From: Chloroflexota bacterium
GTDB lineage: Bacteria; Chloroflexota; Dehalococcoidia; GIF9; UBA5629
Direction: 5' to 3'
NCBI GenBank assembly: GCA_016875875.1
Contig: VGOP01000002.1
Span: 62,001 to 126,000, forward strand
Length of the DNA: 64,000 nt
The notes under the pieces were generated by a model that worked only from the letters and a program-made list of their open reading frames with translations, searched no databases and was not told the origin of the DNA. Shown in pieces: positions 38,411 to 46,574 of this stretch. The stretch's first letter is position 1; every line of letters starts with the position of its first letter. The position numbers were made by a program, and so were the translations under genes.

Positions 38411-38490
38411 TGTCTTTGCGAGCCTTCTCTCCGGTCCTTTTAACGCACCGAGATCGCCACGTCACGATTGCATCGGGACTCGCGATGACA
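38411..38490. repeat. MITE-like dispersed repeat, copy 2 (inverted)
   Basis: An 80-base element with terminal inverted repeats TGTCTTTGCGAG and CTCGCGATGACA. Its interior GAGATCGCCACGTC is the reverse of a segment of copy 1. No open frame. It lies between the arsR promoter and the kinase operon. The size and ends suggest a non-autonomous transposable element; the matching transposase is not in the window. Confidence 0.75.
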
Positions 38491-38550
38491 AGTGGGTAAA
38501 TGTACGGACTGGGCTTTAGCCCTGTCCGAGACGCCCGTTTATAATTTCAC

Positions 38551-38572
38551 GGACAGACCTGAAGGTCTGTCC
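38551..38572. repeat. Short palindrome GGACAGACCT/AGGTCTGTCC
   Basis: Two 10-base perfect arms with a two-base centre, followed by CCTACATTGTAG. The same sequence with longer arms recurs at 59048-59083, so it is a dispersed palindromic repeat. It could also act as a rho-independent-like hairpin, but has no T tract. Confidence 0.75.
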
Positions 38573-38593
38573 CTACATTGTAGCAGCTGCGTA

Positions 38594-38622
38594 TTCGCCC
38601 CAAATCCTAAAGGTGGTATAAT
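38594..38622 (+). promoter_or_regulatory. Promoter of the kinase-RLP-oxidoreductase operon
   Basis: Perfect TATAAT (38617-38622) 17 bases after TTCGCC (38594-38599, weak). Distance to the ATG at 38641 leaves a leader of only about 12 bases, with GAGGTGG as the ribosome site. Confidence 0.6.
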
Positions 38623-38640: not shown

Positions 38641-40182
38641 ATGGCCAAGTACATAATCGCCCATGATGTGGGCACCAGCGGCAATAAGGCAGTTCTGGTG
38701 GATATTGAAGGACATGTCCACGGCAAGTGCTTTGAGCCCTACAAGACCTACTATCCCAAGCCGGGCTGGGCGGAGCAGGAACCTGTAGATTGGTGGAACG
38801 CAGTGACTCGGACGACGAGGCTTCTACTGGAACAAACCGGTGTTTCACCCAAGGATGTGTTATGTATTACTTACAGCACGCAGATGCTCGGCATAATCCC
38901 CATGGATTCGCGAAAAGGGCCGCTGAGACGTGCCATAATCTGGCTTGACAACAGGGCTGGTGAGCAGGCGGAGCGGCTGATGAGAAAATTCTTGGGCCCC
39001 CGTGTTTTTGCCCTAATTGCCGGCGCTACTTTAGGTGGTAAGGATGGTTTACCTAAGCTGCTCTGGCTCAAAGGTGAAGAGCCCGAGATTTATAACATGA
39101 TGAGCTGTTTTCTCGATGTCGCCGGTTATCTTTTCTATCGCAGCACGGGCAACATGGTCATGGAATGGACCGGCGGCTCTGTCTTTGGAATTGACCTGAA
39201 AAAGAAGACATGGCTTAATGGTATTTTTCGCTATGTCGGTCTTGACTCTGAGAAGTTTCCGCCTCTGGTTCGGTCGATAGACAAGGTCGGCGAACTTACG
39301 CCAGAGGCAGCCAAGGAATATGGGCTCCTACAGGGTACGCCAGTAATCGCCGGTTCTGGAGATGCTTCGTGTGCCGCGGTAGGCTCTGGTGCCGTCGGTG
39401 AAGGCGAAGGACATATCTATCTGGGGACGTCTGGCTGGGTGGGTGTGGTCACAGAACGAACACCGCAGGGCAAATGTGGTGCTGCCACGATTCATTCGGC
39501 GGACCCGGGCAAGGCGTTGCTATTTGCTGAATCCGAGACTGCCGGCGCCTGTCTGCAGTGGATTGCCGACGAGTTCTACAAGGCTGAGAAAAAGGACCCG
39601 AATATCCCCAGTGTCTATGCCCTTATGGATGATGAGGTTGCCAGAATTCCACCGGGCTCCAATTACCTGCTCTTCACCCCCTGGATTTACGGCGAAAGGG
39701 CTCCTATAGATGATTGTTATGTCCGTGCCGCCTTTCTCAATTTGAGCGCTGAACATAGCCGTGAGGACTTGCTGCGGGCTGTCTACGAAGGTGTGGCCTA
39801 CAACATAAGGTGGATCGTACAAATCGTGGAGAGAGAATTCAAATTTCCATTGCCGCAGCTCAGAGTCATAGGTGGTGGGGCAAAGGGGAAACCGTGGATG
39901 CAGATTATGGCTGATGTAACTCAAAGGAAAATTGAAACCGTTTGCGACCCTCAAGAAGCTGGAGCGGTAGGAGCAGCGCTGGTAGCTGCTGTTGGCCTCG
40001 GTATATACCCAGATTTTGAGTCTCTGAGAAAGGTGGTCAAGGTAGATAGAGCTTATGAGCCGCAGCCGGAGAATTCGGAGATTTACGACTCGCTGTTTCA
40101 TTCATATCAAGAAGTGTATGGTAGCCTGCGGAATTTCTATAGAAAGCTGAACAAGGAGAGATTTGATAAAGCAACATTGTAA
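38641..40182 (+). CDS. FGGY-family carbohydrate kinase
   Basis: A 513-residue sugar kinase of the xylulokinase/glycerol-kinase group. The N-terminal ATP-phosphate loop is HDVGTSGNKAVLVD. IIWLDNRAGEQAERL carries the catalytic-type Asp. The C-terminal FGGY domain has IYLGTSGWVGVV and RVIGGGAKGKPWMQIMAD. The sugar cannot be inferred from sequence alone. The gene is 12 bases from the RuBisCO-like gene and shares its promoter, so the product is probably a phosphorylated ketose or sugar acid that the RuBisCO-like protein then processes. Confidence 0.9.
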   Translation: MAKYIIAHDVGTSGNKAVLVDIEGHVHGKCFEPYKTYYPKPGWAEQEPVDWWNAVTRTTRLLLEQTGVSPKDVLCITYSTQMLGIIPMDSRKGPLRRAIIWLDNRAGEQAERLMRKFLGPRVFALIAGATLGGKDGLPKLLWLKGEEPEIYNMMSCFLDVAGYLFYRSTGNMVMEWTGGSVFGIDLKKKTWLNGIFRYVGLDSEKFPPLVRSIDKVGELTPEAAKEYGLLQGTPVIAGSGDASCAAVGSGAVGEGEGHIYLGTSGWVGVVTERTPQGKCGAATIHSADPGKALLFAESETAGACLQWIADEFYKAEKKDPNIPSVYALMDDEVARIPPGSNYLLFTPWIYGERAPIDDCYVRAAFLNLSAEHSREDLLRAVYEGVAYNIRWIVQIVEREFKFPLPQLRVIGGGAKGKPWMQIMADVTQRKIETVCDPQEAGAVGAALVAAVGLGIYPDFESLRKVVKVDRAYEPQPENSEIYDSLFHSYQEVYGSLRNFYRKLNKERFDKATL

Positions 40183-40194
40183 GGAGGTGCTAAT

Positions 40195-41505
40195 ATGGAT
40201 AGAGAAGAGATTCTAGGTCTTCCCATAGCTCTGCCGGATGGCGTGGATTACGATGAATATGTTATCGGCACGTATTTGGTTTCCTACCCGGCAGCGCTCC
40301 CCGTGCCACTGATAGCTCCCATGCTGGCTGTGGAGCAGAGCACAGGCACCTGGGTGCCCGTGCCCGGTGAGACTCCAGAGGTTCGTTGCCAGCATATCGC
40401 CAAGGTGATCGGCGTCTACGAGATGCCCGACTACGAATCCACCGTACCTCCCAATCTACAAGACAGGAAGTGGTTTGTGCAGGTGGCTTATCCGGAGGTT
40501 AACATCGGCGAGCAGATACCCATGCTGCTGACTACAGTGGTGGGCAACATTTCTATGGGTGGCGACATAAAGTTGGTAGATATTCGTTTCCCTGAGAAAT
40601 ATGTTGCTGGTTTCAAGGGACCGAAGTTCGGCATTGAAGGTGTGAGGAAAGTGTTAGGCGTGGAAAAACGTCCCCTTCTTAACAACATGATAAAGCCGTG
40701 CACGGGTTATACATGTGAGGTTGGAGCTGAGTTGTTCCGGAAGGCAGCGGCTGGTGGCTGTGACATTGTTAAGGACGATGAGTTGATAGCCGATGCTTCA
40801 TTCAATTCAGCGCTTGAGCGTGTTAAGAGCTATATGAAGATTGAGAAGCAGGTCTATGAGGAAACAGGTGAACGCACTCTATATACCGTGAACGTAACGG
40901 ATGCCATCCCCAAGGTCTTTGAAAATGCCAAGCGCGCTGTGGAATTGGGCTGCAATGCGCTTATGATAAACTACCTCGCCGTCGGCTTTCCGGTTATGCA
41001 GGCGCTGGCCGATGATCCGAAAATAAATGTTCCTATCCTTGCCCACATGGATGTTGCCGGCGCCTTCTATATGTCGCCCTGGCATGGCATGAGTTCTCAT
41101 CTTGTACTGGGCAAGCTGCCTCGGCTGGCCGGTGCTGATGTTGTTGTTATTCCTGCCCCCTACGGGAAAGCGCCGGTGATTGATTATAAGTTCAAAAACG
41201 CTGCTAGAAACCTGTCATTCCCGTTGTACAACCTGAAGCCGACGTTACCTATGGCATCTGGCGGAATTACGCCGTCCATGGTGCCACAGGTGATGATGGC
41301 TTTGGGCAATGATATCGTCATAGGCTCTGGAGGCGGCATTCATGCGCATCCTCAGGGTCCTATCGCTGGTGGCAAGGCGTTCCGTCAGGCGATCGATGCC
41401 ACTATGCAGGGCGTTCCACTGGCGGAATATGCCAAGGACCATAAGGAATTGGCGATTTCCCTTAAGGAATGGGTAGACCCGTTCAGCAAAGGCATTAGGA
41501 TTTGA
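40195..41505 (+). CDS. RuBisCO-like protein (form IV type)
   Basis: A 436-residue member of the RuBisCO large-subunit superfamily. TTVVGN (N118), IKPCTGYT (K167), GGCDIVKDDE (K193, D195, E196: the carbamylated Lys and Mg ligands), H284, loop-6-like Lys325, MASGG (355-357) and GSGGG (378-381) align with the catalytic motifs. However, the equivalents of Lys177, Arg295 and His327 (spinach numbers) appear to be Cys169, Met285 and Ser. It is therefore not a CO2-fixing RuBisCO; it likely enolises or isomerises a phosphorylated ketose or keto acid. AAGGAGGTG site; central gene of a three-gene operon. Confidence 0.93.
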   Translation: MDREEILGLPIALPDGVDYDEYVIGTYLVSYPAALPVPLIAPMLAVEQSTGTWVPVPGETPEVRCQHIAKVIGVYEMPDYESTVPPNLQDRKWFVQVAYPEVNIGEQIPMLLTTVVGNISMGGDIKLVDIRFPEKYVAGFKGPKFGIEGVRKVLGVEKRPLLNNMIKPCTGYTCEVGAELFRKAAAGGCDIVKDDELIADASFNSALERVKSYMKIEKQVYEETGERTLYTVNVTDAIPKVFENAKRAVELGCNALMINYLAVGFPVMQALADDPKINVPILAHMDVAGAFYMSPWHGMSSHLVLGKLPRLAGADVVVIPAPYGKAPVIDYKFKNAARNLSFPLYNLKPTLPMASGGITPSMVPQVMMALGNDIVIGSGGGIHAHPQGPIAGGKAFRQAIDATMQGVPLAEYAKDHKELAISLKEWVDPFSKGIRI

Positions 41506-41518
41506 AAGGAGTAAGCAA

Positions 41519-42736
41519 ATGTCTAAGGTTACAGTTTTAGGTGGCTGTGGGGCGGTCGGCAGCATAGCCAGTGACACGCTGGCTTCAAGCGGCGTGTTCT
41601 CCGAAGTAGTTGTCGCTGACATTAATGTTGCGGTAGCAAGAAAGCTAGTCGGAAGGCTCAAAGGATGTAAAGTTTCCGCCGTGGAAGTTGATGCCGAAAA
41701 TCCCCAGAGCATAAAGAGGGCGATTGGCGGCTCATCGGTTGTCCTGAACTGCGTTGGGCCGTTCTACAAGTACGGCCCCAGCATACTGAAAGCCGTGATA
41801 GAAGCCAAAATCAATTATGTCGATGTCTGCGATGATTTTGATGCCACGGAGAAGATTCTGGCCATGGATGATAAGGCGAAGAAAGTTGGTGTTTCAGCAC
41901 TCATCGGAATGGGGAGTTCGCCCGGCGTGGCCAATGTTCTGGTCAGGTTCTGTGCTGATTCTCTGCTCGACCAAGTTGAGGCGGTGGACATATATCATGC
42001 CCATGGCGGCGAGAAGATTGAAGGTCCGGCGGTGGTGAAGCACAGGATTCACTCCATGAAGATAGATATACCAATGTTCCTTGGTGGCAAGTTTACCACG
42101 GTGAATCTCTTTGAGGACAGCGGAAAGGCCTTGGAGGAGGAGACTGAATTTCAAGATGTCGGTAAATACAGCGTCTATAGCTATCCGCATCCTGAGACTA
42201 TAACTCTGCCGAAGTATTTAAAGGGTGTAAAGAGGGTGACAAATCTAGGGCTGGTACTGCCGCCGGCTTATGCCGAGCTGATAAAGGGGATGGTAAGGCT
42301 GGGTATCACGGATGAGAAACCCATTGAGGTACAGGGTCACAATGTTATTCCTCTGGAGTTTGCTGTAAGCTATATACTTTCCCAGCGGCAGAGGCTGCTG
42401 AAAGAGGCTAAGATTAACCAGCCGATGGGTTGTTTGAAAATTGTGGTCAAAGGGTACAAGGATGGCGGGAAGAACACGTATATTTTCTCGATGTCTTCGC
42501 GAGGGCAGGGCATGGGTGAAGGCACAGGTATACCGGCGGCGATAGGTGCCATACTCATGGCTACAGGAAAGATCAAAGAGAAGGGTGTGCTTCCGCCTGA
42601 AGCCTGCGTCAATCCCATGGACCTGCTTGAGCTTGCCAAGACCAAAGTGAAAGCTGCTGCCGGTAGAGGCTTTCCTATCAGCATCGAACATATAGACAAA
42701 AATGGCAAGTCGCAGAAGGTGAACCTGCTTAGCTAG
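41519..42736 (+). CDS. Saccharopine-dehydrogenase-like NAD(P) oxidoreductase
   Basis: A 405-residue protein with a Rossmann loop VLGGCGAVGS at the N-terminus, the VLNCVGPFYKYG segment and GMGSSPGVANVL, as in saccharopine dehydrogenase and carboxynorspermidine synthase families. It lies 13 bases after the RuBisCO-like gene with a GGAG site, so it is in the operon. A Cys-free active site cannot be assigned. It could oxidise or reduce the product or substrate of the RuBisCO-like step. Neither the substrate nor the reaction is known. Confidence 0.85.
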   Translation: MSKVTVLGGCGAVGSIASDTLASSGVFSEVVVADINVAVARKLVGRLKGCKVSAVEVDAENPQSIKRAIGGSSVVLNCVGPFYKYGPSILKAVIEAKINYVDVCDDFDATEKILAMDDKAKKVGVSALIGMGSSPGVANVLVRFCADSLLDQVEAVDIYHAHGGEKIEGPAVVKHRIHSMKIDIPMFLGGKFTTVNLFEDSGKALEEETEFQDVGKYSVYSYPHPETITLPKYLKGVKRVTNLGLVLPPAYAELIKGMVRLGITDEKPIEVQGHNVIPLEFAVSYILSQRQRLLKEAKINQPMGCLKIVVKGYKDGGKNTYIFSMSSRGQGMGEGTGIPAAIGAILMATGKIKEKGVLPPEACVNPMDLLELAKTKVKAAAGRGFPISIEHIDKNGKSQKVNLLS

Positions 42737-42780
42737 CTAACTTGATTACCTGGTGTTGCGGAGATGGTCTGTCAATGTAG

Positions 42781-42824
42781 GGGCGAGGCTTTAGCCTCGC
42801 CCAATGCGACCTTAAAAAGGTCGC
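42781..42824. repeat. Two adjacent palindromes
   Basis: First palindrome GGGCGAGGCT-TT-AGCCTCGCCC (42781-42802), second GCGACCTT-AAA-AAGGTCGC (42806-42824). They lie downstream of the oxidoreductase stop and may terminate the kinase-RLP operon, or be a dispersed palindromic repeat like those at 38551 and 59048. Confidence 0.75.
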
Positions 42825-42901
42825 AACTATATTGGAAAGTAGACTGTCGCCAAGCACTCTCCATTCACCATATTATTGTTGTCTCTCAGAGAGGTGAACC
42901 A

Positions 42902-45746: not shown

Positions 45747-46574
45747 ATGGCTAAAGATTATGGGATTATTGATGCTTGGATGCAGCACCCAAACCTGAAG
45801 TTCTTAAATCACCCCATGTTCGATTCCCTTCGGAGATGGACGGGGACGGAAGAACTAACCGAGGAGATTCCGGTAGAGACCACCATAGCTGCCATGGATG
45901 AGGCAGACGTTGGATTGGGCTTGATATGTGCCTGGTGGGGTCCCCAGGGGCCGCTTATCTCAAACGATGAAGTGGCTACCCTTGTCAAGAAGCATCCTGA
46001 CCGTTTTGTTGGCATCGGGTCGGTTGATTTGTATAGGCCTATGGACGGAATTCGAGAGCTGAGGCGCTGTGTGCGTGAACTCGGTTTCAAGGGTTTGAGA
46101 ATTGTCCAGTGGCTTTGGAATTTGCCCCCCACTGACAGGCACTATTATCCTCTGTACGCAGAATGCACAGAACTCGGCGTTCCATTCTGTTTTCAGGTGG
46201 GACATACTGGTCCCCTCTGCCCTTCTGAGCCGGGACGGCCGATACCATATATCGATGAGGTCGCCATTGAATTTCCTGAGCTTAGGATCGTTGGGGGGCA
46301 CATCGGATATCCCTGGACGGTGGAGATGATTGCCGTGGCAACGAAACATCCGAATGTCTATATTGATACCTCGGCCTATACTGCCAAACGCTACCCAAAG
46401 GAATTCGTAGACTACTTGAAAAAGAACGGGCAGAAGAAAGTCCTTTTCGGCACCAATTATCCCATGATTACTGCAGCCATGTGCTTAAAGGATTTGGATG
46501 CGCTCGGACTGGACGACGAGGTAAAGAAGCTGTTCCTTTGCGAGAATGCAAAACGCGTATATGGGCTTCAGTAA
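45747..46574 (+). CDS. Amidohydrolase_2-fold protein with degenerate metal site
   Basis: A 275-residue TIM-barrel protein of the amidohydrolase-related group. The beta-8 motif normally FGTDYP reads FGTNYPM (Asn237 instead of the catalytic Asp), and the N-terminal HxH reads IDAWMQH (W11, Q13) instead of DxHxH. His153 (QVGHTG) and His185 (GGHIGYPW) remain. It may use no metal, or a different one, or have lost catalysis. GGGAGG site before the ATG. The 167 bases upstream hold two CTACAATT repeats and no gene. Confidence 0.85.
   Translation: MAKDYGIIDAWMQHPNLKFLNHPMFDSLRRWTGTEELTEEIPVETTIAAMDEADVGLGLICAWWGPQGPLISNDEVATLVKKHPDRFVGIGSVDLYRPMDGIRELRRCVRELGFKGLRIVQWLWNLPPTDRHYYPLYAECTELGVPFCFQVGHTGPLCPSEPGRPIPYIDEVAIEFPELRIVGGHIGYPWTVEMIAVATKHPNVYIDTSAYTAKRYPKEFVDYLKKNGQKKVLFGTNYPMITAAMCLKDLDALGLDDEVKKLFLCENAKRVYGLQ

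Follow-up and report, generated by a model that had tools for sequence, protein, structure and literature searches.

A RuBisCO-like protein lineage of bacteria and archaea is linked to an FGGY kinase and to one of three interchangeable C-N enzymes

In a 64,000-nucleotide stretch of the contig VGOP01000002.1 of a Chloroflexota bacterium (the window), genes for an FGGY carbohydrate kinase, a RuBisCO-like protein (RLP), and a saccharopine-dehydrogenase-fold NAD(P) oxidoreductase (SDH) follow one another. It was found that the third position of this trio can be filled by any of three interchangeable C-N enzymes, namely SDH and two types of class-III aminotransferase (AT3a and AT3b). That the kinase, the RLP, and the C-N enzyme belong to a module is well supported. 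I estimate a probability of about 0.6 that they make up one metabolic module of three steps, in which the RLP acts on a keto-monophosphate. The original prediction was that an anaerobic Chloroflexota could have a new catabolic route for a sugar or sugar acid. The observation behind it is confirmed and its interpretation is partly supported; the scope turned out to be wider, covering uncultured bacteria and archaea of mostly anaerobic lineages, while the substrate is probably an amino-polyol or amino sugar acid and catabolism is the likely direction.

The promoter candidate and the three genes are as follows.
38614..38622, + strand: extended -10 sequence (TGnTATAAT), TGGTATAAT, a candidate promoter before the kinase gene, read from the sequence
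38641..40182, + strand: FGGY carbohydrate kinase, 513 aa (Pfam FGGY_N 7e-51, FGGY_C 7.9e-30)
40195..41505, + strand: RLP, 436 aa (Pfam RuBisCO_large 1.2e-47, also RuBisCO_large_N)
41519..42736, + strand: SDH, 405 aa (Pfam Sacchrp_dh_NADP 1.3e-17, Sacchrp_dh_C 1.5e-12)

An ORF check reproduced the order kinase, RLP, and SDH with gaps of 12 and 13 bases, and the coordinates, strand, and frames that had been given were all correct. Shine-Dalgarno sequences (TAAGGAGGTGCTAATATG and GAAAGGAGTAAGCAAATG) precede the second and the third genes, one in each gap. Judging from the sequence, the proposed single promoter for all three genes is plausible, since the extended -10 sequence ends at 38622, 18 bases ahead of the kinase ATG, but a consensus scan upstream of the kinase detected no sigma-70 pair at this site. 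On both sides, the trio is flanked by short repeat-like stretches of the type 'gaaggtctgtccctac' / 'gtaggggcgaggctttagcctcgcc' (window positions 38480-38580 and 42770-42830). An Amidohydro_2 protein is encoded downstream of the trio at 45747-46574, and Amidohydro_2 or look-alike proteins also occur near the RLPs of four other loci (L055, L066, L081, and L218).

NCBIfam gives the same families as Pfam, although no curated NCBIfam function model reaches its cut-off for any of the three products. The kinase is a member of the FGGY family, as both FGGY_N and FGGY_C exceed the Pfam cut-offs, while its assignment as a curated xylulokinase, gluconokinase, or AI-2 kinase was rejected; the top match, XylB (TIGR01312), scores 328 bits against a cut-off of 380. 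The RLP scores 379 bits (cut-off 409) and 337 bits (cut-off 513.6) with the MtnW models NF007095 and TIGR03332, respectively, 261 bits with the type III RuBisCO model (cut-off 497), and 203 bits with the OiaX model NF042437 (cut-off 700), and its identification as OiaX was rejected on the last of these scores. The predicted structure of the RLP (AlphaFold, pLDDT 89) has MtnW and form III RuBisCO as the nearest folds.

In RuBisCO, the P1 phosphate is held by T65, K334, G381, G403, and G404 (spinach numbers, here and below), and the P2 phosphate by R295 and H327. The informative codons of the window RLP are listed below.
40693..40701, + strand: K167-P168-C169, corresponding to spinach K175-P176-K177, with K177 replaced by Cys
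40771..40782, + strand: K193-D194-D195-E196, corresponding to spinach K201-D203-E204, the carbamate lysine and Mg ligands (computed from the ORF)
41044..41049, + strand: H284-M285, corresponding to spinach H294-R295, with Met in place of R295, a residue of the second phosphate site

Thus, the carbamylated-Lys/Mg triad (K193, D195, and E196) and the Cys and Met replacements of the original prediction were borne out by the residue table, which adds a third replacement that it had not mentioned, H327 by Val318. The RLPs of the trio and their relatives, which form one clade as described below, retain E60, T65, W66, N123, K175, K201, D203, E204, H294, K334, S379, G380, G381, G403, and G404, except for one Phe at W66 in 31 rows. 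The clade has Met at R295, Val at H327, and Cys at K177, the sole exception at the last position among the 31 members being an Asp in the Archaeoglobi locus L222. On these residues, the metal site and the P1 phosphate site are intact and the second phosphate site is lost. Because the P1 residues are retained and R295 and H327 of P2 are replaced, the substrate is expected to carry a single phosphate. The idea that the substrate is phosphorylated first is not proven but is supported by the gene linkage and by the survival of one phosphate site where the other is lost.

Is the RLP then a carboxylase or an enzyme of methionine salvage? A true carboxylase, which would add CO2 to a keto-monophosphate to give a product that SDH aminates, is highly improbable. 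Its appeal is that E60, N123, K175, K201, H294, and K334 are all retained, more as in RuBisCO than in MtnW, but R295, H327, and K177 are replaced, and to my knowledge the RLPs of known reaction are isomerases, enolases, decarboxylases, or an oxygenase. The RLP as a RuBisCO carboxylase was rejected, as the full active-site set is broken at C169, M285, and V318 and the type III model stays below its cut-off. MtnW departs further from RuBisCO, because it has Gly at E60, Lys at N123, and Ser at K334. The Lys at the N123 position of MtnW is the catalytic base; this position is Lys in 7/7 MtnW rows, in contrast to Asn118 in the window RLP and Asn in 31/31 trio rows.

The trio RLP shares with MtnW (IV-YkrW) the fold, the carbamate lysine and Mg ligands, and a single phosphate site, and MtnW provides its nearest solved structures. 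A variant of methionine or 5′-deoxyadenosine salvage, with the RLP as an MtnW-type 2,3-diketo-1-phosphate enolase, would draw on this kinship to the closest solved and curated relative (379 bits with NF007095) and on the class II aldolases (MtnB superfamily) or HAD phosphatase near a few loci. However, this variant is improbable, since the RLP stays under both MtnW cut-offs and outside the MtnW clade, has Asn in place of the MtnW Lys, and keeps E60 and K334, both of which MtnW has lost. Moreover, the neighbours are an FGGY kinase and a C-N enzyme instead of methionine salvage genes; no mtnA, mtnK, or mtnD was identified among the neighbouring genes examined. Methionine salvage as the main reading was thus rejected on residues, cut-offs, tree, and neighbours. 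OiaX (3-oxo-isoapionate-4-phosphate decarboxylase) likewise pairs an RLP with sugar-acid phosphate chemistry and keeps K334, but OiaX-like rows retain R295 and H327, and the OiaX neighbours differ. In summary, the module resembles RLP sugar-phosphate enzymes in general and fails the tests given above for MtnW, OiaX, and RuBisCO.

A tblastn-confirmed scan found 80 loci with an RLP at 55-93% identity. The bacterial carriers are Chloroflexota, Caldisericota, Cryosericota, Actinomycetota, Bacillota, Acidobacteriota, and Myxococcota, and the archaeal carriers are Archaeoglobus, Methanolliviera, Theionarchaea, Bathyarchaeota, and several Asgard groups. In a maximum-likelihood tree that also took in MtnW, clostridial RLPs, archaeal and bacterial RuBisCO, and OiaX-like proteins, the trio RLPs form one clade (support 100/100), nearly all members of which come from metagenome-assembled genomes (MAGs). 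The clade is separate from MtnW (itself 100/100), OiaX, and true RuBisCO, so that the phylogeny suggested as a check places the RLP outside any clade of known reaction. Archaeoglobi RLPs nest inside the trio clade (100/100), beside the same SDH. The RLP of L222, which I take to be the Archaeoglobus fulgidus locus, shares 58% identity with the window RLP, and the product of the adjacent gene shares 57% identity with the window SDH. Because Archaeoglobi proteins, including that of the presumed A. fulgidus locus, fall inside, the trio clade is probably the IV-Aful lineage. This lineage name is used for the RLPs of Archaeoglobus fulgidus (PMC10173188). The common ground with form IV-Aful is the Archaeoglobi RLPs within the clade next to the same SDH; in contrast, IV-Aful is not a functional class, and the present analysis extends it by numerous members from bacteria and archaea and by conserved partners. 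The open papers searched yielded no description of a reaction for the IV-Aful lineage or of the kinase-RLP-SDH/aminotransferase set. An actinobacterial RLP of unknown function was reported with other neighbours (PMC7325909).

Some related RLPs lie in other surroundings. A neighbouring RLP clade of Bacillota (L200-L208 and L219; 636-671 bits to the trio profile) has PEP-hydrolase-like, 2-phosphosulfolactate phosphatase-like, and UPF0261 proteins as operon partners. In another Bacillota group (L211-L214), the RLP genes adjoin those for a PTS-regulated sigma-54 activator, a class II aldolase, and apparent PTS permeases, and pathways for sugars or polyols driven by the PTS are suggested by this context. 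The loci L012, L076, L209, and L217 have genes near the RLP that may encode glycerol-3-phosphate dehydrogenase or a glycerol kinase-like protein, and these were kept out of the model.

The gene neighbourhood, the second check suggested earlier, showed that the trio is present in many relatives. In 65 of 87 loci, the RLP has a kinase of the same kind at a distance of up to 4.5 kb, and this adjacency recurs across phyla and both domains; the kinase family is present in 32 of the 34 RLP genomes searched. SDH is found within the same distance of the RLP in 40 of the 87 loci. Since both linkages extend over several phyla and both domains, the trio is not a chance arrangement. Away from the RLP, SDH adjoins an FGGY kinase in an archaeal locus (L131) and a deltaproteobacterial locus (L132). 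RLPs of other sub-clades in Bacillota (L215-L217) are likewise beside FGGY kinases, and therefore the kinase-RLP pairing is wider than the trio clade.

A class-III aminotransferase takes a place near the RLP in 22 of the 87 loci, and in none was it scored together with SDH (a further aminotransferase-like neighbour in L065, seen by clustering, is below the threshold of this count). AT3a is related to glutamate-1-semialdehyde aminomutase, and AT3b to amino-acid racemase/ArgD-like proteins. The hypergeometric value for the zero overlap is 6.5e-8; since this value takes no account of shared ancestry, more weight is given here to the independent swaps and to the genome-level pattern. On the RLP tree, the AT3a label requires at least six changes and the AT3b label at least two, corresponding to several independent swaps. 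Among 34 RLP genomes, 15 have SDH only, 11 AT3a only, 6 AT3b only, one SDH and AT3a, and one SDH and AT3b. Thus, exactly one C-N family is present in 32 of the 34 and none lacks all three, although 'exactly one' may partly reflect incompleteness, because many of these genomes, which were picked from the RLP matches for spread, are incomplete MAGs. A partner that is not beside the RLP was found elsewhere in the genome, for example in G453, G455, G472, and G473. The thresholds were >550 bits for SDH (next-best 277), >700 bits for AT3a, and >680 bits for AT3b, excluding weaker AT3b matches in G456 and G477; G082 and G452, which give identical coordinates, were counted once, and the SDH status of G400, G402, and G893 was judged from the loci L003, L004, and L222. 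Of 400 Chloroflexota genomes sampled, one, the window's own, has the SDH family and 13 have AT3a.

The third gene had been regarded as foreign to the known RLP pathways. A lead to its role is now given by its C-N oxidoreductase fold and its exchange with PLP aminotransferases, from which it follows that the pathway involves an amine, a point that was not foreseen. SDH belongs to the saccharopine-dehydrogenase superfamily by both Pfam domains and by fold (predicted structure pLDDT 91; Foldseek 8deb with TM 0.81 and 3abi with TM 0.70). The nearest structures are carboxyspermidine dehydrogenase, lysine 6-dehydrogenase, and saccharopine reductase, with which it has the Rossmann and catalytic domains in common, but the identity is about 20% and SDH has a conserved HRxH motif of its own. 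This His-Arg-x-His stretch (H175, R176, and H178) might bind an anionic substrate. The fold family acts at C-N bonds, and carboxyspermidine dehydrogenase has a triad, H228-E229-E230, of a catalytic His, a substrate-coordinating Glu, and a relay Glu (PMC10413350). In a profile alignment, H224-P225-E226 of SDH, invariant in a 15-sequence SDH alignment, aligns to this triad; the catalytic His (H224) and the relay Glu (E226) are retained, and the substrate-coordinating Glu is replaced by Pro225. SDH as a carboxy(nor)spermidine dehydrogenase was rejected on this H-P-E sequence in place of His-Glu-Glu and on the score with the carboxynorspermidine synthase/dehydrogenase model NF043000 (62 bits, cut-off 800). 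No polyamine genes were seen near the trio. In the trio family, SDH could act on a hydroxyl instead.

In the preferred three-step module, the C-N enzyme would interconvert an amine and a carbonyl, using the NAD(P)-dependent SDH here and PLP class-III aminotransferases in other lineages. The FGGY kinase would then add one phosphate at a terminal hydroxyl. The Mg-carbamate RLP would hold that phosphate in its surviving P1 site, and its carbamate lysine would abstract the proton beside the ketone, leading to enolisation, isomerisation, or decarboxylation of the keto-monophosphate. Decarboxylation is an attractive outcome because two enzymes, OiaX (model NF042437) and a class II aldolase relative (NF043034), decarboxylate 3-oxo acid phosphates, to judge from the names of the models. 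The substrate class, the order of the first two steps, the direction, and the exact RLP reaction are what I infer.

The direction was considered through an operon of Chloroflexota in which a PF00016 search gave no match over the cut-off. In these RLP-free genomes (L252-L261), AT3a shares an operon with an FGGY kinase and a class II aldolase, and in most cases genes for an MFS transporter and a TetR regulator are included. Since AT3a, an FGGY-family kinase, and a class II aldolase, mostly with MFS, are united there, the catabolic direction is preferred. Two of these operons add a 2-hydroxyacid dehydrogenase and a beta-hydroxyaspartate-dehydratase-like enzyme, and the operon may in its own right encode an undescribed route for an amino-polyol or amino sugar acid. 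Two RLP-bearing Bacillota genomes have a second AT3a-aldolase-kinase cluster (L267 and L268), one with an MFS-like gene, and in the window's genome a class II aldolase gene and an MFS gene of the operon-related family are 0.7 kb apart (L275). The class II aldolase as an obligatory partner was rejected: a PF00596 protein is present in 32 of 34 RLP genomes, a co-occurrence that is uninformative because 12 of 14 unrelated controls carry one too, and the aldolase adjoins the trio in a few loci only.

On the other hand, most RLP loci are without an adjoining transporter, which would fit a biosynthetic or salvage route too. In such a route, the kinase and the RLP would make a keto-phosphate, and SDH (by reductive amination) or an aminotransferase would convert it to an amino compound. 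The module is retained in genomes of 1.2-2 Mb, and the best-known SDH relatives are biosynthetic (PMC10413350). I consider this route rather unlikely, given that the aminotransferase operon, which includes a class II aldolase and an MFS transporter, looks catabolic and that in L009 and L075 the trio has a related MFS gene close by.

A bolder version of the module, which I offer tentatively and hold to be the less probable case, is that the RLP handles CO2 in an amino sugar acid or amino-polyol pathway common to uncultured bacteria and archaea. The C-N enzyme would give a beta-keto acid, the kinase would phosphorylate it, and the RLP would remove CO2 or, in reverse, add it. The CO2-handling residues of RuBisCO, E60, N123, K175, K201, and K334, are intact in the RLP. 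If true, a CO2-handling RLP would connect the chemistry of RuBisCO with that of MtnW as a living link. RuBisCO is believed to have evolved from RLPs, which serve as its comparison group (PMC12663927).

With the module, this RLP lineage has two conserved partners, and its pathway is constrained by an amine-carbonyl step that any of three enzyme families performs, which narrows the substrate hunt from an open-ended one to a testable set. These results suggest that uncultured Dehalococcoidia, Anaerolineae, Archaeoglobi, Bathyarchaeota, and Asgard archaea have a carbon pathway linked to nitrogen.
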